From Oceanobacillus senegalensis (GTDB lineage Bacteria; Bacillota; Bacilli; Bacillales; Amphibacillaceae): 64,000 nucleotides of DNA. Both the position numbers and the translations under genes were made by a program. Position 1 is the stretch's first letter. Each line of letters opens with the position of its first letter. The stretch is taken from contig NZ_LT839648.1 in assembly GCF_900176885.1 (NCBI RefSeq), positions 1,143,049 through 1,207,048 on the forward strand. Direction: 5' to 3'. The notes under the pieces were generated by a model that searched no databases, was not told the origin of the DNA, and saw only the letters and a list, made by a program, of their open reading frames with translations. Shown here in pieces: positions 6,864 to 50,797 of the stretch.

Positions 6864-6874
6864 AAGAGCGACTA

Positions 6875-6985
6875 TGGAACAAAGGCTAAGAACGCCACGT
6901 CCTGTGGAAACGCCTTCGTGATCACCATCGTGTTGGCCTGAAGTAGGCTCAGCAGCGCCTAAGGTGAGCGTAGTTTATTTCCGTA
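6875..6985. other. GC-rich, structured non-coding patch
   Basis: About 110 bases are clearly richer in G+C than the surrounding DNA. They contain short stems such as CCAC/GTGG and the palindrome GTGATCAC. No frame is open across it with a start and ribosome binding site. From memory, similar patches recur between genes in related Bacillaceae, but this is the only copy I see in the window. The rest of the mtnN-sigK gap holds copy 1 of the repeat and plain AT-rich sequence. Confidence 0.4.
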
Positions 6986-7065: not shown

Positions 7066-7773
7066 TTATATATTATCTCTTTCTTGACGATAATATTCGT
7101 GAAATACCTTCATTAAGGCTCTTTTTTCTATTCGTGAAACATAACTACGAGAAATATTTAGTTTTTTAGCTATCTCTCTTTGTGTCATTTCTTTTGAATC
7201 ATTAAGACCATATCGATATACAATAACTTCACGTTCTCTGCTATCTAAAATTGAAAAGTATTCTTGCATTTTTTCAATTTCCATATTGAGCTGGATGTAC
7301 TCAATGATATTTTCATTTTCTGCCTCTAATATATCTATGAGGCTAATTTCATTTCCCTCTTTATCTTGACCAATTGGATCATGAAGAGAAACATCTTTTT
7401 TAACCTTTTTTAAAGCCCTTAAATGCATAAGTATCTCGTTTTCAATACAGCGTGCAGCATAGGTGGCTAGCTTAGTACCTTTATCTAATGAAAAACTTTC
7501 AACCCCTTTAATTAATCCAATCGTACCAATTGAGATAAGATCCTCCATATCTTCCCCTGTATTTTCAAACTTTTTTACAATATGAGCGACAAGGCGCAAG
7601 TTATGTTCAATCAGTTTGTTCCTAGCGATTTCACTACCTTCCTGCATTTCTTTTATATATTTCTTTTCTTCATCTGGTGGTAATGGCTGAGGAAAGGCAT
7701 GATTTTTTACATAGGAAACAAAGAAGAGGACTTCCTTTACAAGAAGAGCAAGTACTGTTAATATTCCAGACAA
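7066..7773 (-). CDS. sigK: Sporulation sigma factor, pro-sigma-K (uninterrupted)
   Basis: A full-length mother-cell sigma factor of late sporulation, about 235 residues. A hydrophobic pro-sequence precedes the SYVKN cleavage region. Region 2 follows ([31 protein letters not shown]), and region 4 contains the helix-turn-helix [20 protein letters not shown]. The gene is one piece, unlike B. subtilis, where the skin element splits it. The TTG at 7773 gives a 20-residue pro-sequence and lies 9 bases from GGAGG. An ATG two codons earlier (7779) is only 3 bases from it. The basic tail of the B. subtilis protein is absent. Confidence 0.93.
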
Positions 7774-7896
7774 ACACATGCACCTCCTATAATAATATTC
7801 AAACTGTGTAAAAAGAATTCTTGTGTTTGGGTATTTGCCTATATTACAACTCTATGTAGGGAAGGGGGCTTTTGTGTCTGTCCATTAAAATAAAAC

Positions 7897-7927
7897 ATAA
7901 AAAAGTGACCTTTTTAAAAGGTCACTT
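7897..7927 (-). terminator. Intrinsic terminator of the mrp operon
   Basis: A perfect 11-bp stem (7903-7913 with 7917-7927) overlaps the mrpG stop codon. On the minus strand it runs into TTTTTATG. Confidence 0.88.
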
Positions 7928-8299
7928 GTTGTTTAGATTAGCTTTATATTGTTCATAAGCATCGTTGCGATTTTTAATAACTGGTGAAATTCCTTTTGAA
8001 TGAGCTGCTCTGGATATCATATGAGCTGATACAGGATTGGTTATCATCATAAATAAAATCGCAATTAACAACTTCCCACTAATAATATCGTGGTGAAGGT
8101 ATAAATATAGAAATGCTGCAATTAAAATTCCAGCAATTCCTAGTGTGGATGCTTTAGTTGCGGCATGTAGCTTTGTATAAACATCCGGAAATCGAATAAT
8201 TCCAATGGATGCAGATACTATAAGGAATGCACCAATTAGTATGGAGAGGATGATTAGTATATTTATAATAATTTGGAAGAACATTTCAGTTTCTGTCAA
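7922..8299 (-). CDS. mrpG: Na+/H+ antiporter subunit G (MrpG)
   Basis: A small membrane subunit of the Mrp multi-subunit Na+/H+ antiporter, with three predicted membrane helices. The typical motif is GIIRFPDVYTKLHAATK. A TTG start at 8299 gives 125 residues, close to the family length, and lies 9 bases after AGAGG. Upstream in-frame ATGs at 8335 and 8317 have weaker context. It overlaps the mrpF end by 14 bases and is the last gene of the operon. Confidence 0.9.
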   Translation of the reverse strand: MTETEMFFQIIINILIILSILIGAFLIVSASIGIIRFPDVYTKLHAATKASTLGIAGILIAAFLYLYLHHDIISGKLLIAILFMMITNPVSAHMISRAAHSKGISPVIKNRNDAYEQYKANLNNK

Positions 8300-8591
8300 T
8301 GATAGCACCCTCTTCATAGTATTTAGCAATACCAACCGTTCCTAAGAAAGCAAGGATACCAATTAGTAGAACCACATCATTTAGTTTATCTGTAACAAGA
8401 TAGATGGATAGTAATCCAGCAACAGCCATTAAATTTGCACCAATTGTATCTAATGCAATCGCTCTAATAGCATTATCTGGGCCAATAATGATTTGATACA
8501 TTAAGATTGCAAGGGATATGGCAATTGCTAAAAATCCAATAGTAACCGAAATCTCGACAATATTATTTGTTATCTCTAAGATCTCCCTCAT
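8286..8591 (-). CDS. mrpF: Na+/H+ antiporter subunit F (MrpF)
   Basis: A 101-residue membrane protein with three helices and the MrpF motif IIGPDNAIRAIALDTIGANLM. It is part of the Mrp complex that exchanges internal Na+ for external H+. The ATG follows GGAGG by 7 bases, and the start overlaps the mrpE stop by 4 bases. The acidic and polar C-terminus (KYYEEGAIIDRN) overlaps the mrpG start, which suggests coupled translation down the operon. Confidence 0.93.
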   Translation of the reverse strand: MREILEITNNIVEISVTIGFLAIAISLAILMYQIIIGPDNAIRAIALDTIGANLMAVAGLLSIYLVTDKLNDVVLLIGILAFLGTVGIAKYYEEGAIIDRN

Positions 8592-9064
8592 CTTGTCACC
8601 TCCATAATAGCTTTTTCAAATGAATTTTTGATATCATTTATCGATTCCTCTGTATCGTCAATATTCATAGCATGGACATACAAATAATGGTTATCAGCAG
8701 ATACAGCTACAGATAAGGTTCCCGGCGTTAATGAAATGAGAGTGGTTAGAATAGTTATTTCCCAATTTGATTTAACGTCAAGAGGTATTTCAAAGATCCC
8801 TGGTTCAGCTAATTGCTTTGGTGAGTAAATATATTTAAGCATTGTAATATTTGATAAGATTAATTCTCTAATAAAAATTAAAATTAACTTAATAATATTT
8901 TTGACTTTAATTAGATAAAAAGGACCTGGTATAAACCTCCTTAACACAAATAGTAAAATAATCCCTAAGAGATATCCAATAATAAAACTTGGTGCAGTGT
9001 AGGATTCACCTAGAAACATCCAAAGAATAGCAATTGTTATATTAATAATAATTTGAAAGGCCAT
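8588..9064 (-). CDS. mrpE: Na+/H+ antiporter subunit E (MrpE)
   Basis: A 158-residue subunit, the same length as in B. subtilis. Two N-terminal membrane helices precede a soluble domain with the family motif LISLTPGTLSVAVSADNHYLYVHAMN. MrpE is needed for assembly and activity of the antiporter in studied systems. It starts 6 bases after the mrpD stop, behind AAAGGAG, and overlaps mrpF by 4 bases. Confidence 0.94.
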   Translation of the reverse strand: MAFQIIINITIAILWMFLGESYTAPSFIIGYLLGIILLFVLRRFIPGPFYLIKVKNIIKLILIFIRELILSNITMLKYIYSPKQLAEPGIFEIPLDVKSNWEITILTTLISLTPGTLSVAVSADNHYLYVHAMNIDDTEESINDIKNSFEKAIMEVTR

Positions 9065-9070
9065 GTTTCA

Positions 9071-10552
9071 CTACTCCTTTAGTACAGAATCAATATAAAC
9101 CTCAGGATTAAGTAAATATCCTGCAATGGAATCGGTGATTGGATAAAAGTATTCTGCCCCTACACCTAATATAACTGTTAAGGATATTAGAAAAACAACT
9201 GGTGCAATTAAACCTTTTGTAGATACTGGTTTTAAGTTTTTCATTTCATCTTTCTTTCCCCAAAAAGCATGAATGAAGATTTTTATGATAGAATAGAGGA
9301 TTAAAAGACTTGTTATAAGGGCAATGACAGCAATAACAACCTCATCACTTCTAAATGCACCATCAAGTAGCATCAGCTTTCCAATAAATCCACTAAATGG
9401 TGGGATACCTGCTAAAACAAAAGCACTAATAAATAACAGCCATCCTAGAACAGGGTAATGATGGATTAATCCACCCATCTTACGTAAATCTGACGTGCCA
9501 GCCACATATGCAATTACACCTACTAATAGGAATAGTGCTGCTTTAACTATAATATCCTGCATGAGATAATAAATGGACCCACTTAAAGCCTCTTGATTGA
9601 ATATACCAATTCCCATAATGATATAGCCAATAGCAGGGATAATATTATAAGCTACTATCAGTTTAATATTATTTGTAGAGAGTGCTCCAATGACACCGAA
9701 AATCATGGAAAGTCCTGCTACCCAAATAAAGAAATCATGGGTGAGTTCTAATTTTTGATTGAATATTAATGTAAATACCCGTAATATCGAATAAATACCG
9801 ACTTTTGTTAATAATGCACCAAATAAAGCTGAAATAACTGGGTTTGGTACTATGTAGGAATTAGGTAACCAATAATATAACGGGAATAACGCTGCTTTCG
9901 TTGCAAAAACAAAGAACAGCAAGAAGGCGATTGTTGTTAAAATACCTTGTTGATCAACTTCTGCCACTCGTTTAGCAATTTGTGCCATATTAACTGTACC
10001 TACCGCACCATAAACAAAGGCGACTGCCGTAACGAATAACATGGAAGAAAATACATTGATTAATACATATTTCATAGATTCTCTTAATTGAACTCTATCT
10101 CCACCTAAGACAATTAGGGCATAAGAGGCCATTAATAATACTTCAAAGAATACAAAAAGGTTAAATAAATCCCCAGTAATGAACGCACCGGACACACCAG
10201 TAATTAGGAAAAAGAAAAAGGGATAGAAATAGTACTTCTCTTTTTTTTCAAGGCCCGCATGTGGTGCATAAAAAGCACATCCTACAGCAACTAAATTAGT
10301 TGAGAGAACTAATAATGCTGCCAACATGTCAACAACTAATATGATTCCATACGGTGCAATCCAATCACCTGTTTGCAATACTACCGTTCCATTTTCATCT
10401 ACATATAGGAAGAGATAAATTGCAACGGCTAAGCCAATTAGTGAAAACACTTTCGTCAATAATCTTGAAATTTTAACATTAGAGTTAAAAAATATTAAGA
10501 TTATTGCTGATAGTAACGGCAAGACAATCGGTAAAACTGCTAAATTACTCAT
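9071..10552 (-). CDS. mrpD: Na+/H+ antiporter subunit D (MrpD)
   Basis: A 493-residue polytopic subunit homologous to the NuoM/NuoN proton-pumping subunits of respiratory complex I. Visible family features are the conserved glutamate in LFVFFEVLLMASYALIVLGG, the lysine in FATKAALFPLYYWLPNSY, and the block AGIPPFSGFIGKLMLL near the C-terminus. It forms one of the two ion-translocation modules of the antiporter, the other being MrpA. It overlaps mrpC by 8 bases. Confidence 0.96.
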   Translation of the reverse strand: MSNLAVLPIVLPLLSAIILIFFNSNVKISRLLTKVFSLIGLAVAIYLFLYVDENGTVVLQTGDWIAPYGIILVVDMLAALLVLSTNLVAVGCAFYAPHAGLEKKEKYYFYPFFFFLITGVSGAFITGDLFNLFVFFEVLLMASYALIVLGGDRVQLRESMKYVLINVFSSMLFVTAVAFVYGAVGTVNMAQIAKRVAEVDQQGILTTIAFLLFFVFATKAALFPLYYWLPNSYIVPNPVISALFGALLTKVGIYSILRVFTLIFNQKLELTHDFFIWVAGLSMIFGVIGALSTNNIKLIVAYNIIPAIGYIIMGIGIFNQEALSGSIYYLMQDIIVKAALFLLVGVIAYVAGTSDLRKMGGLIHHYPVLGWLLFISAFVLAGIPPFSGFIGKLMLLDGAFRSDEVVIAVIALITSLLILYSIIKIFIHAFWGKKDEMKNLKPVSTKGLIAPVVFLISLTVILGVGAEYFYPITDSIAGYLLNPEVYIDSVLKE

Positions 10553-10883
10553 TTGATTTACCCCTTAACTGTTCCATATTATCTGTATTGTTTTCTCTTG
10601 TTGTTCGGTATGCTAATACAAGAAGAAGACTTGTAATACCAAAACTAATAACAATGGACGTAAGAATTAAAGCCTGTGGTAAAGGATCTGTGTACTCTGT
10701 AATACCATCCATTAAAATAGGTGGTTGACCGGTTTTTAGTTTACCCATTGTCAAAATAAGCAAATGGGCACCATGGGATAACAATACAGTACCTATAATA
10801 ATACGTAGTAACTGTTTCTGTAACAAATTATAAATGGCAGGTGCAAAAAGAACACCACCAAGAATAATAATTAATATTTCCAT
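10545..10883 (-). CDS. mrpC: Na+/H+ antiporter subunit C (MrpC)
   Basis: A 112-residue NuoK-like subunit with three membrane helices and the conserved segment LLSHGAHLLILTMG, followed by DPLPQALILTSIVISFG. It sits directly against mrpA, whose stop codon immediately precedes the mrpC ATG. The ribosome binding site (AAGGAGG) lies inside the last mrpA codons. In B. subtilis mrpB lies between these two genes; here there is no room for it. Confidence 0.95.
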   Translation of the reverse strand: MEILIIILGGVLFAPAIYNLLQKQLLRIIIGTVLLSHGAHLLILTMGKLKTGQPPILMDGITEYTDPLPQALILTSIVISFGITSLLLVLAYRTTRENNTDNMEQLRGKSNE

Positions 10884-13205
10884 TTATTCCGCCTCCTTTT
10901 TCTTTTTTAATTTAATAAGAGAAAAGATGGCCAGTGCTGCAATTCCTAGCACAGTTATTTCGAATAATGTATCTAGTCCACGGAAATCCACTAGAATTAC
11001 GTTAACGATATTATCCCCACCACCGAGTTTATAGGAATTCTCGATAAAATAATCAGAAATGGATTTGAACCAATTGGAGCTATGTGCCGATATTCCTATT
11101 AAGATAATTAATAATCCAAATCCAGCAGAAATAAAGATGTTTGTAAATTTATTTGATAGTGTTTCTTCCCTTTTTCTTAAATTCGGCAAGTGATAGAAAC
11201 ATAATAAGAACAGAGCAATGGATATCGTTTCCACAGTTAACTGTGTTAATGCAAGGTCTGGAGCACGGTAGATTACAAATAACATAGATACGCCATAACC
11301 TACGATTCCAGTTACTAAAATAACTGCAACATTATTATTTACAAATAGAGTAGCTATAGCAGCAATCATAATTATTGTTACGAGAGCAACCTCAAGGCTC
11401 GTTACATCAGCTACCTGGCTAAAGTCAATTGTAAATCCATTTGTTAACCACATATACATCAAAGTTACGATGAATGTAGTGCCTAATATTAAAATCATAT
11501 ATGTTCTAAGAGAACCAGTCATATATGTATTCGTAATACCTGCAGAGTAGGTATCCAATTTTTCTATTATTGTGTTATATACGCGATTAAAGCTTAAGTT
11601 ACCTGGTAAAATGTTGTAGATACCTTGCCACTTTTTACGGGTCAAGAATAGAATGATTCCTACGCCTACTACGATTAATGACATGATTAATGGTGGATAA
11701 TTAAACCCATGCCAAAATGCTATATCATGGTATTCTACATTACTATTAACCGCTTCCGCAGCATGTTGTAGGAATGTGCCATTCACCATATTAGGGAATA
11801 ATCCAATTAAAACAACACCAAGCACAAGAATAATAGGGGAGATTAACATCCCAATTGGTGCTTCATGAGGTTTCTTCGGTAGCTTGTCCAGTTGTTTCGG
11901 TCCAGTAAATACTCCAAAAAAGAAGTACATGGAATAAACAAAGGTAAAAATACTACCGAAAACAGCAAGGTATGGTATAGCTTGACTAAGCCATGCTGCA
12001 CCTTCCAAACCAAGTGTTGCGTCGAAAAATAATTCTTTACTATAAAATCCATTTAGGAATGGTAACGGTACACCTGCCATGGAGAACGTAGCAAATACGG
12101 CTAATGTACCTGATATAGGTAATAGGGTAAATAGACCACCTAGTTTCCTTATATCACGTGTCCCGGTTTCATGGTCAATTATTCCAGCAATCATAAACAG
12201 GCTACCTTTAAATGTCGCATGGTTTAAAATATGAAATACAGCAGCAAATACGGCGGCTTCTGTTCCAAAACCAAGCATTGCCATAATCATACCTAATTGA
12301 CTGATGGTAGAGAAAGCCAAAATACCTTTTAAATCGGTCTGCCTGACTGCCATGTAGGAGCCCCAGCAAAGCGTTACAATACCGATAAGGCTTACAATAA
12401 TAAAGAAACCTTCATATAAAGCAAAGATAGGTGAAAATCTAGCAACTAAAAATATGCCTGCTTTTACCATGGTTGCTGAGTGTAGATACGCACTAACAGG
12501 GGTTGGTGCTTCCATTGCGTCAGGTAACCAAATATGGAATGGAAATTGTGCAGATTTTGTAAATGCACCTAGTAGTATGAAGATTAAAGTTAGAAGTAGA
12601 TAATCACTTTCTAAAATAATATCTACCTGTTCTATCATTCCTTGAATACTAGTTGTACCAGTAATAATCGTTAGAAGTATGAACCCTCCAAGTAAACTTA
12701 AACCACCAAATACGGTTATAAGCATTGATTTTAACGCGCCATATCTTGAACGCTCTTTAAAATTCCAATAACCAATTAATAAAAATGATGAAATGGATGT
12801 TAATTCCCAGAATGCATATAATGCAAAAACGTTATCAGATAATACAACACCTAACATTGCAGCCATAAACATTAATAGGTAGACATAAAAATGTCCCAAC
12901 TTTTCTGATTTGTCTAAGTACCATATTGAATAGAGTACGACTAATGACCCAATTCCACTAATTAGTAAAACAAATAGTAAACTTAGTCCGTCTAAATAAA
13001 AGTCTAGGTTCAATCCTAGGGATGGTATCCAATTGTATGTTTGTCTAATTGGACTAAAGTTGGCTCCGATAAATTGGATAAAGTAAAGAAAGATGATAAA
13101 AGGGATGAAAAAAACAAAAATACCAGTATGTATTCGATCTTTTACTTTACTAATCCATGGTACAAATATAGCAAACAGTAATGGAGCGAAAACTGCGTAA
13201 ATCAT
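10884..13205 (-). CDS. mrpA: Na+/H+ antiporter subunit A (MrpA)
   Basis: A 773-residue polytopic protein, the first gene of the operon. The N-terminal two-thirds is NuoL-like, with FWELTSISSFLLIGYW, the lysine-containing FTKSAQFPFHIWLPDAMEAP and INHATFKGSLFM-type motifs (here LNHATFKGSLFM). The C-terminal part carries the DUF4040/MbhE-like region APDLALTQLTVETIS and ends with DFRGLDTLFEITVLGIAAL. That end is the normal MrpA terminus, so MrpA is not fused to MrpB. RBS AAAGGAGGAA. It is slightly shorter than the roughly 800-residue B. subtilis protein. Confidence 0.96.
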   Translation of the reverse strand: MIYAVFAPLLFAIFVPWISKVKDRIHTGIFVFFIPFIIFLYFIQFIGANFSPIRQTYNWIPSLGLNLDFYLDGLSLLFVLLISGIGSLVVLYSIWYLDKSEKLGHFYVYLLMFMAAMLGVVLSDNVFALYAFWELTSISSFLLIGYWNFKERSRYGALKSMLITVFGGLSLLGGFILLTIITGTTSIQGMIEQVDIILESDYLLLTLIFILLGAFTKSAQFPFHIWLPDAMEAPTPVSAYLHSATMVKAGIFLVARFSPIFALYEGFFIIVSLIGIVTLCWGSYMAVRQTDLKGILAFSTISQLGMIMAMLGFGTEAAVFAAVFHILNHATFKGSLFMIAGIIDHETGTRDIRKLGGLFTLLPISGTLAVFATFSMAGVPLPFLNGFYSKELFFDATLGLEGAAWLSQAIPYLAVFGSIFTFVYSMYFFFGVFTGPKQLDKLPKKPHEAPIGMLISPIILVLGVVLIGLFPNMVNGTFLQHAAEAVNSNVEYHDIAFWHGFNYPPLIMSLIVVGVGIILFLTRKKWQGIYNILPGNLSFNRVYNTIIEKLDTYSAGITNTYMTGSLRTYMILILGTTFIVTLMYMWLTNGFTIDFSQVADVTSLEVALVTIIMIAAIATLFVNNNVAVILVTGIVGYGVSMLFVIYRAPDLALTQLTVETISIALFLLCFYHLPNLRKREETLSNKFTNIFISAGFGLLIILIGISAHSSNWFKSISDYFIENSYKLGGGDNIVNVILVDFRGLDTLFEITVLGIAALAIFSLIKLKKKKEAE

Positions 13206-13392
13206 CTAATACTATTCCTCCTTTATAAATTAAGTCTTCTTGAGCATAACCATATTATTTCCTATAATAGGAAATAATGTAAAAGAATGCCTAATCTTGT
13301 AAAAGTGTCTAATAATGGTTTTTGATGGTGAACTATCCATTGGGAATTGTAATATGTTGTGGAATTTTGTTTACTTTGGGAATCCAACTTTT

Positions 13393-13421
13393 ATCATAAT
13401 ATATAATAAAAGTTTATACAA
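13393..13421 (-). promoter_or_regulatory. Candidate sigma-A promoter of the mrp operon
   Basis: On the minus strand, TTGTAT (13421-13416), a 17-base spacer and TATGAT (13398-13393). The -10 is good and the -35 is weak. The remaining bases between here and mrpA are AT-rich, and I see nothing else in them. Confidence 0.35.
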
Positions 13422-13445
13422 ACATAGTCTATCGTAGTCATTATT

Positions 13446-13488
13446 ATATTAAAAAATAAATAACTCCTGCTTGGGGGGAGCAGGAGTT
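13446..13488 (-). terminator. Intrinsic terminator of sda
   Basis: A perfect 10-bp stem (13462-13471 with 13479-13488) has a 7-base loop. On the minus strand it runs into ATTTATTTTTT, so it serves the minus-strand gene sda. Confidence 0.85.
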
Positions 13489-13520
13489 TGGAAAAAACCG
13501 ATATTATTTGGTATCCATGA

Positions 13521-13667
13521 TTAACTAGTTTTAATCCATTTAATTTTGTGTGATAACTTTCTTCTATGAATTTCTTCTTCTATTAATGAGATAAAATCAG
13601 GGCTTAAATTTAAATCGTTTGCTGTATAATAGGATTCAATTAGTAGGTCATCAGATAAATGTTCCAT
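13521..13667 (-). CDS. sda: Sporulation checkpoint inhibitor Sda
   Basis: A 48-codon gene starting at ATG 13667, 8 bases after GGAGGG. The product begins [18 protein letters not shown] and has a second helix around [15 protein letters not shown]. This matches B. subtilis Sda (LSDELLIESY, IELIENEIKRR) in length and pattern. Sda is a helical hairpin that binds the dimerisation domain of sporulation kinase KinA and blocks phosphorelay entry when replication is disturbed. It is divergent from yqeG, as in B. subtilis, and DnaA boxes lie upstream. The four-base-offset upstream ATG runs into an early stop. Confidence 0.88.
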
Positions 13668-13753
13668 CCATACAGCCCTCCTAAGTAAATTGTCTTGCTT
13701 GATTTAAGTTAATAATAATTTACCATGTTTCTCAAACTAGGACAAGACACAAG

Positions 13754-13853
13754 TTATCTACATAAGCCTGTAGATAACTTGTTAGTAATATCACATTTCT
13801 CTGTAAAAAATGGATAACTTAGCCTGTTGAAAATGTTAGTAAAGTTATCCACA
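13754..13853. promoter_or_regulatory. DnaA-box cluster upstream of sda
   Basis: Four sites lie within 100 bases: TTATCTACA (13754-13762), the same on the reverse strand (13769-13777), a weaker reverse TTATCCATT (13809-13817) and a perfect TTATCCACA (13845-13853). The first two form an inverted pair. In B. subtilis DnaA binds upstream of sda and links its expression to replication; the same control is inferred here. Confidence 0.75.
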
Positions 13854-13994
13854 TTCGAAACATGGAGATATTTGTCGAACGATTTTTTAAAATCTTATCG
13901 AAAAAACACATATTTAGTATGATTTTTATCATATATTTACTGTTTGCCCACCTAAAGGAAATATGTCTTACACGATGAAAGGTTCGTTAGCCTG

Positions 13995-14103
13995 TTTATC
14001 GCAGGTTAAGAGGCATCATACCCCACCTCAAAGATGGAGGAAAAACGAATCCCTTTTAGGTGAGGGATGAGAGAAAACCCCACTGATTGAAGATTTACTT
14101 TAT
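13995..14103 (+). repeat. Dispersed hairpin repeat, copy 2
   Basis: A 109-base relative of copy 1, in the same orientation. The start TTTATCGCAGGTTAA and the arms CCCCACCTCAAAG and CTTTTAGGTGAGGG are clear. The end is GAAGATTTACTTTATC. It lies between the DnaA boxes and yqeG. Its inner sequence differs from copy 1 at many positions while the ends are kept. Confidence 0.7.
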
Positions 14104-14190
14104 CTGGGACAGAACTATCATATTATGGTAAATTATTGTAGGATTGTTTTATGTAATTATAGCCGAAGAAATTTGATGAGGTGTAATAAC

Positions 14191-14706
14191 GTGTTAAGTA
14201 AATTTTTGCCCAATGAGCATGTAAAAAGCATTTTTGATATTCACCCTAGTACCTTAACGGAGAAAGGAATTAAAGGCATCATAACCGATTTAGATAATAC
14301 GCTTGTAGCCTGGGATGTTGCTGATGCGACACCAGAGGTTATTCAGTGGTTTAAATTAATGAAGGAACATGATATTCAAATAACGATTATTTCTAATAAT
14401 AATCTTGACCGAGTTAAGGTGTTTTCTGAACCATTAGGCACGCCATTTGTTTATAGTGCCAGAAAACCATTACGTCGTGCTTTCAACAAAGTTCGGAAAC
14501 AAATGAAATTAAAAAAAGAAGAAATAGTAGTTATTGGTGATCAAGTTTTAACTGATGTCCTTGGTGGGAACATTGCTGGTTTCTACACCATATTAGTTGT
14601 TCCGATAGTAAAATCTGATGGAAGAATAACAAGAATAAATCGGAAAATAGAACGGAGAATATTAAACTATTTTAGAAACAAAGGTAAAATCAGCTGGGAG
14701 GAATGA
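14191..14706 (+). CDS. yqeG: HAD-superfamily phosphatase YqeG
   Basis: A 171-residue HAD-type (IIIA) phosphatase. The nucleophile motif is GIITDLDNTLVAWD, motif II is TIISNNN, and VVIGDQVLTDVLGGN carries the metal-binding aspartates. The substrate is unknown. The GTG at 14191 was chosen because GATGAGGTG lies 7 bases upstream and the length then matches the B. subtilis protein; the open frame extends to 14125 without a good site. It overlaps yqeH (ATGA) and opens the yqeGH-aroE-yqeI-nadD-yqeK-rsfS-yqeM operon. Confidence 0.92.
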   Translation: MLSKFLPNEHVKSIFDIHPSTLTEKGIKGIITDLDNTLVAWDVADATPEVIQWFKLMKEHDIQITIISNNNLDRVKVFSEPLGTPFVYSARKPLRRAFNKVRKQMKLKKEEIVVIGDQVLTDVLGGNIAGFYTILVVPIVKSDGRITRINRKIERRILNYFRNKGKISWEE

Positions 14707-50579: not shown

Positions 50580-50596
50580 TCTAATAAAAATAGGAA

Positions 50597-50797
50597 ATTG
50601 CGAAGAAAGAGAAGAGTATCTACTGCATTCTATTCTTAGCGAGTCCGGGATGGTGTGAGCTGGATAGTAGAAAGGTTGAGAAAGGCGCTCTGGAGCAATT
50701 GATATAAAGTGGCTCTATTTTAATAGAGCAATTAGGGTGGAACCGCGGTAAAAGCCGTCCCTATGCTGTTTAACTAGCATAGGGACGGCTTTTACTA
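50597..50797 (+). promoter_or_regulatory. Glycine T-box riboswitch
   Basis: A T-box leader in front of glyQ. Stem I contains the AGAGTA loop-E-like motif and the distal GGGATGGTGTGAGC. The specifier appears as GGC (50684-50686) in GAAAGGC, as in B. subtilis glyQS. The T-box sequence AGGGTGGAACCGCG spans 50734-50747. A terminator of 20 paired bases (50748-50767 with 50776-50795) follows. Uncharged tRNA-Gly would stabilise the antiterminator and switch on glyQS. Confidence 0.96.

Follow-up and report, generated by a model that had tools for sequence, protein, structure and literature searches.

The mrp operon in the window

The window, a stretch of 64,000 nucleotides of the 4.3-Mb Oceanobacillus senegalensis genome (G000:C4:1143049-1207048), carries on its minus strand an Mrp antiporter operon with the gene order mrpA-C-D-E-F-G, from which the second gene, mrpB, is absent. 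The operon is bordered by a divergent gene that we take to be yqeG (14125-14706) and, just downstream, by a sigma factor gene that is presumably sigK (7066-7779), and these two neighbors mark the slot that it occupies. The features are:

14125-14706, plus strand: yqeG-like gene, divergent neighbor of the operon and slot marker
10884-13205, minus strand: mrpA, 773 aa; normal C-terminus (MbhD, MbhE), MnhB domain absent
10892-10897, minus strand: AGGAGG ribosome binding site of mrpC, within mrpA, read from the sequence
10881-10886, minus strand: junction of the mrpA stop and mrpC start, 0 bases between; the place of mrpB in complete operons
10545-10883, minus strand: mrpC, 112 aa; Oxidored_q2
9071-10552, minus strand: mrpD, 493 aa; Proton_antipo_M
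8588-9064, minus strand: mrpE, 158 aa; MNHE
8286-8591, minus strand: mrpF, 101 aa; MrpF_PhaF
7922-8335, minus strand: mrpG; PhaG_MnhG_YufB; TTG start listed mechanically, the true start probably nearer 8284
7066-7779, minus strand: sigK-like sigma factor gene just downstream of the operon; the other border of the slot

All six products (MrpA, C, D, E, F and G) carry their expected Pfam domains, and these matches, together with the gene coordinates, bear out the initial annotation of an mrpA-C-D-E-F-G operon without mrpB. It was also right that the stop codon of mrpA touches the start codon of mrpC, with TAA (10886-10884) directly abutting ATG (10883-10881), and that the mrpC ribosome binding site (AGGAGG, 10897-10892) lies inside mrpA. 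MrpA has the normal C-terminus attributed to it, with MbhD at residues 611-674 and MbhE at residues 690-765 of 773, and Pfam gave no MnhB match on this protein. We therefore rejected a fusion of MrpB to MrpA, as the initial annotation had done.

Comparison of the junction in related genomes, proposed at that stage, revealed a zero-length junction in all seven Oceanobacillus operons of the six-gene type and an mrpA-mrpC gap of -1 to +7 bp in all 27 six-gene operons read, which represent 13 families. Because the same junction recurs in 27 of 27 operons, an assembly deletion was rejected as the cause of the gap.

A detached mrpB in the cytochrome c maturation cluster

Searching the source genome for MnhB-domain proteins with the PF04039 profile, a check that had likewise been suggested, gave two matches above the cut-off. 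One gene belongs to a second mrp operon, which is complete (A, B and C in L002, all seven genes in L017). The other is a detached mrpB (G000:C4:1435371-1435793, minus strand; L001) that is adjoined by no mrp gene and lies 282 kb from the window mrpC in a ccd (cytochrome c maturation) cluster. It is flanked by ccdA and ccdC, its neighbors encoding CcdA (DsbD_TM), CcdC (PF07301) and, convergently, a DUF2621 protein. The initial annotation had named an mrpB in Mrp-type context elsewhere as evidence against its reading; the second operon does hold such a gene, yet it is the detached copy, set in a non-Mrp context, that is informative. Detached MrpB is 50% identical to the MrpB of the complete operon and matches chain B of structures 7qru (E = 5e-44) and 6z16 (E = 7e-40) over nearly its full length, entries that we assume to be from B. 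pseudofirmus and A. flavithermus, respectively.

We read 27 detached loci (7 from Oceanobacillus and 20 others, covering all 13 families), and every one lies in a ccd cluster, with ccdA upstream in 25, ccdC downstream in 26 and the DUF2621 gene in 26. A CheY-like gene of ~120 aa, which we take to be yneI/ccdB, stands between mrpB and ccdC in 12 of the 27. For comparison, we read 30 ccdA loci from 31 non-split genomes, partly of other families. There, ccdA occurs with ccdC in 22 loci, 12 of them with yneI in between, and mrpB is found in none of the 30 loci, hence in none of the 22 ccdA-ccdC clusters. Since the non-split ccdA loci have no mrpB, the gene appears to have been inserted between ccdA and yneI. 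It is also kept in clusters from which ccdA (L049, L053) or ccdC (L042) has gone; in two genomes where ccdA has left the cluster and mrpB stays (G213 and G174), there is no close ccdA, the nearest ccdA-like matches reaching 41% and 37% identity.

Named genomes yielded at least 496 relatives. Of the best 80, three (from Ammoniphilus and two Paenibacillus) are part of an mrp operon, and the other 77 belong to a ccd cluster. These ccd-located relatives come from, among others, Virgibacillus, Ornithinibacillus, Halobacillus, Gracilibacillus, Pontibacillus, Lentibacillus, Thalassobacillus, Salinibacillus and Pseudalkalibacillus. A ccd-located mrpB also occurs in records titled Roseburia sp. 1XD42-34 and Rossellomorea aquimaris EaN35-1 (L142, L202); given the gene order, the Roseburia title looks wrong.

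Distribution and history of the split

The two parts of the split set co-occur closely. Across 28 Oceanobacillus genomes, we found 45 MnhB matches and 45 mrpC matches, of which 38 pairs are adjacent; the seven unpaired mrpC and seven unpaired mrpB all fall within the same 7 genomes, such that all 28 genomes are consistent, 7 with both parts and 21 with neither. The six-gene operon is present in 7 genomes, type A (complete mrp operons adjoining the detached or six-gene group in our trees) in 14 and neither form in 7, with mrpB detached in exactly the first 7. Two genomes of the genus (G006 and G020) have the split set only, and one (G008) has two complete mrp operons and no split.

At the family level, we drew 120 genomes evenly from 46 genera, defining window-type mrpC by at least 69% identity (one per genome, 84 genomes) and calling it unlinked when no mrpB lay within 1,200 bp on the same strand. 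None of the 84 window-type mrpC adjoins an mrpB, while the 51 mrpC that make up the other main class all have a linked one, as do 8 remote mrpC. Detached mrpB is present in 83 of the 84 genomes with a six-gene operon, the exception (G128) being 80% complete, and in none of the 36 genomes without that operon. In 61 of the 84, there is no linked mrpB-mrpC pair at all. One detached copy (G070) is cut by a contig end beside ccdA, and another (G097) is frameshifted in a genome where the mrpA, ccdC and DUF2621 matches are also split over frames (L256, G097:C3:1328000-1337000; L258), which suggests sequencing error in an indel-rich assembly. In the 34 genomes (35 rows) where the two loci share a contig, they always occupy the same strand and are separated by at least 262 kb, mostly 260-480 kb; the conservation thus extends to the larger gene order.

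In an order-level sample of 110 genomes, 32 of 105 mrpC matches were unlinked. The split with a detached mrpB occurs in 30 genomes from 13 of the 40 families having mrpC, and 29 of these 30 genomes contain no linked mrpB-mrpC pair. The split is thus old and conserved across 13 families. The 'old, tolerated deletion' of the initial annotation holds as to age; as to kind, it was a relocation. The other two unlinked mrpC belong to G142, a remote match at 32% identity, and to G242 (family f35). In G242, mrpA and mrpC are 69 bp apart with no mrpB between them (L093 4335-4405), and a lone MrpB-like ORF (L094 4208-4723, 171 aa, ~30% identical) lies between peptidase-like and GTPase-like genes rather than at ccd, apparently a second, separate case of an mrpB-less operon.

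An unrooted MrpB tree of 66 rows, built with a quick method, placed the 27 detached proteins in one clade with an SH-aLRT of 94 (below 95), beside type A (grouping 82). The unrooted MrpC+MrpD tree likewise united the 27 six-gene operons (100) and set them and type A apart from the remaining complete operons (98). In both trees, type A falls beside, never inside, the split group. The two G242 loci were omitted from the trees, and 8 of the 14 type-A operons were included, the other 6 being classed by mrpC identity and slot.

Gene neighborhoods follow the same division. Divergent yqeG adjoins all 27 six-gene operons read and none of 19 other loci read from the order sample (L078-L093 and L095-L097; 18 complete operons and the G242 six-gene operon). 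Of the 14 Oceanobacillus genomes with type A, all without detached mrpB, 12 carry it at the yqeG-sigK slot, as do 3 of 3 other such genomes read; in G009 and G016, both type A, no yqeG lies within the stretch read. Among congeners lacking both forms (7 genomes), we read the slot in 3: G001 and G027 have yqeG beside sigK and no mrp gene, and G025 has yqeG and no mrp gene, with sigK outside the stretch. Depending on the species, the slot (window 7066-14706; L022, L024, L026-L028, L032, L236-L238 and L247-L252) therefore holds a six-gene operon, a type-A operon or no mrp operon, and its contents look to have been swapped in place among species of one genus. Mapping the split label on the Oceanobacillus LepA tree takes 5 changes, of which 2 fall on supported branches, and operon states have therefore turned over. 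A co-loss test within the genus had only 2 independent pairs on well-supported LepA branches, too few for significance. The simplest history would be that of a complete ancestral operon at the slot, from which mrpB moved to ccd in the split line.

A probable two-locus Mrp complex and its alternatives

We consider it highly probable (roughly 0.87) that a seven-subunit Mrp complex is produced from two loci following one ancient relocation of mrpB, its assembly being deduced from sequence comparisons. The window operon would supply six subunits of a group-1-type Mrp cation/proton antiporter, and the seventh, MrpB, would be made from the detached gene, placed between ccdA and ccdC at a distance of ~282 kb, and join the complex in the membrane. 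In a single event, mrpB would have left the complete ancestral operon at the yqeG-sigK slot and come to rest downstream of ccdA and upstream of the CheY-like yneI/ccdB gene, an arrangement then presumably inherited across the 13 families. This agrees with one option raised by the initial annotation, that the subunit is encoded elsewhere; the retention of detached mrpB in 83 of 84 genomes and the purifying selection described below speak against its other two, a complex that works without MrpB and an impaired operon.

To follow the divergence of detached MrpB, we compared distance correlations in the 23 of 27 split genomes in which ccdA, ccdC and the DUF2621 gene are all present. MrpB correlated with MrpD at 0.79, MrpA at 0.74, MrpF at 0.70, ccdA at 0.67, MrpC at 0.62, MrpE at 0.61, DUF2621 at 0.60, MrpG at 0.56 and ccdC at 0.36. 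After removal of the three ccd-cluster genes, partial correlations were 0.46 for MrpA, 0.55 for MrpD and 0.45 for MrpF (0 of 500 permutations as high), 0.19 for MrpE (3 of 500), 0.16 for MrpC (24 of 500) and 0.17 for MrpG (22 of 500). Conversely, removal of MrpA, MrpC and MrpD left -0.03 for ccdA, -0.24 for ccdC and -0.00 for DUF2621. MrpB divergence follows MrpA, MrpD and MrpF, not the ccd neighbors.

Residues important in a characterized system are conserved too. According to the accessible part of PMC5703873, the B. pseudofirmus MrpB-P37G mutant retains antiport but loses the monomeric complex, and F41A does not fully restore Na+ resistance; the corresponding residues of detached MrpB are P35, kept in 13 of 14 aligned rows, and F39, kept in all 14. 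What is accessible of that paper agrees with the earlier statement that every one of the seven subunits matters in the Bacillus systems studied. The complex here would presumably need its MrpB. Among the seven congeners, dN/dS is ~0.076 for mrpB, ~0.058 for mrpC and ~0.10 for mrpE (NG86; 17, 16 and 14 of 21 pairs usable, respectively, many near saturation), and the detached mrpB is under purifying selection.

The constant company of ccd genes, found in all 27 loci, invites a different explanation, in which the six-gene complex functions without MrpB and the detached protein has been recruited to a ccd role in thiol reduction or cytochrome c maturation. We regard this as improbable, because detached mrpB occurs in none of the 36 family genomes without the six-gene operon and in none of the 22 non-split ccdA-ccdC clusters, persists where ccdA or ccdC has left the cluster, shows no ccd co-divergence once MrpA, MrpC and MrpD are accounted for and retains MrpB-specific residues. 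A redundant detached gene, with MrpB coming from a complete second operon like that of the source genome (L002), is a little less probable still: most split genomes have no linked mrpB-mrpC pair (61 of 84 in the family sample, 29 of 30 in the order sample), G006 and G020 within the genus have the split set only, and the two MrpB proteins are 50% identical. The complete second operon was accordingly rejected as the usual source of MrpB. That the operon is impaired, or its gap an assembly deletion, has nothing in its favor beyond the absent mrpB and is very improbable indeed, given the junction shared by 27 of 27 operons in 13 families and the low dN/dS of mrpB (~0.08) and mrpC (~0.06).

Mrp complexes are described as encoded by single operons and classified by operon layout (accessible parts of PMC5703873 and PMC7419157), and none of the three cluster groups in the former, as far as its accessible text goes, has mrpB outside the cluster. 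Group 1 (mrpABCDEFG in one cluster; many Bacillus, S. aureus) has the same seven subunit types as the source genome, a separate MrpB and an MrpA with the MbhD/MbhE C-terminus, and the order A-C-D-E-F-G is kept here; however, mrpB lies outside the cluster, 282 kb away in ccd. Group 2 (mrpA'CDEFG, B fused to A; Pseudomonas, Vibrio) likewise comprises six genes starting A-C, but the window MrpA has no MnhB domain and MrpB is a separate protein. Group 3 (irregular, for example cyanobacterial CDCDEFGBB) shares the departure from the standard arrangement, although mrpB is inside the cluster there in the accessible account of PMC5703873. The 7qru and 6z16 complexes, unlike the window operon, are described as coming from seven-gene operons (listing of PMC9568556; accessible portions of PMC7419157). 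The split is a new gene arrangement of a known Mrp system, not a new kind of transporter.

We found no report of a detached mrpB in the open-access titles and abstracts searched, and subscription papers may hold one. O. iheyensis is credited with two mrp clusters in the accessible text of PMC5703873, and that of PMC10203224 reports an 'mrpABCDEFG operon' in a data set concerning Aquibacillus salsiterrae; in the record of the latter species, the mrpB that we found lies in the ccd cluster (L137). The presence of mrpB at a separate locus in 13 families, mainly of halophiles, breaks the one-operon rule and provides a naturally occurring case in which to ask if a complex-I-like membrane complex needs operon co-translation for its assembly. 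In practice, a six-gene operon cloned alone from such species would yield an incomplete complex, and annotation based on gene neighborhood misses the MrpB subunit.

The ccdA-mrpB gap spans 6 to 213 bp across 25 loci, and we counted promoter boxes in the 18 gaps of at least 35 bp, dropping the 7 shorter ones. When one mismatch is allowed, a TATAAT-like box is present behind ccdA in all 18 gaps (mean of 13.5 in shuffles, 4 of 1,000 of which were as high), and 8 of the 18 have an exact box (mean of 2.0 in shuffles, 0 of 1,000 as high). mrpB is probably transcribed from a promoter just after ccdA, by read-through from ccdA or both. Because similar boxes were seen by eye after ccdA in several non-split genomes, mrpB may, tentatively, have landed behind a pre-existing promoter. 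In the solved complex, MrpB is found at the dimer interface (accessible part of PMC7419157), so its dose could act as a switch; it is nonetheless unlikely, if less so than the alternatives above, that MrpB supply from the ccd locus ties Mrp dimerization or assembly to cytochrome c maturation, with antiport capacity following respiratory capacity. A cmscan search of the window and two further loci (L003 and L017) found neither a riboswitch nor any other known RNA close to the operon or to detached mrpB, its only matches being a Bacillaceae-1 RNA (Rfam RF01690) at window positions 6870-6936 (plus strand) and a T-box leader at 50594-50765 (plus strand), ahead of two genes resembling those for glycyl-tRNA synthetase subunits.
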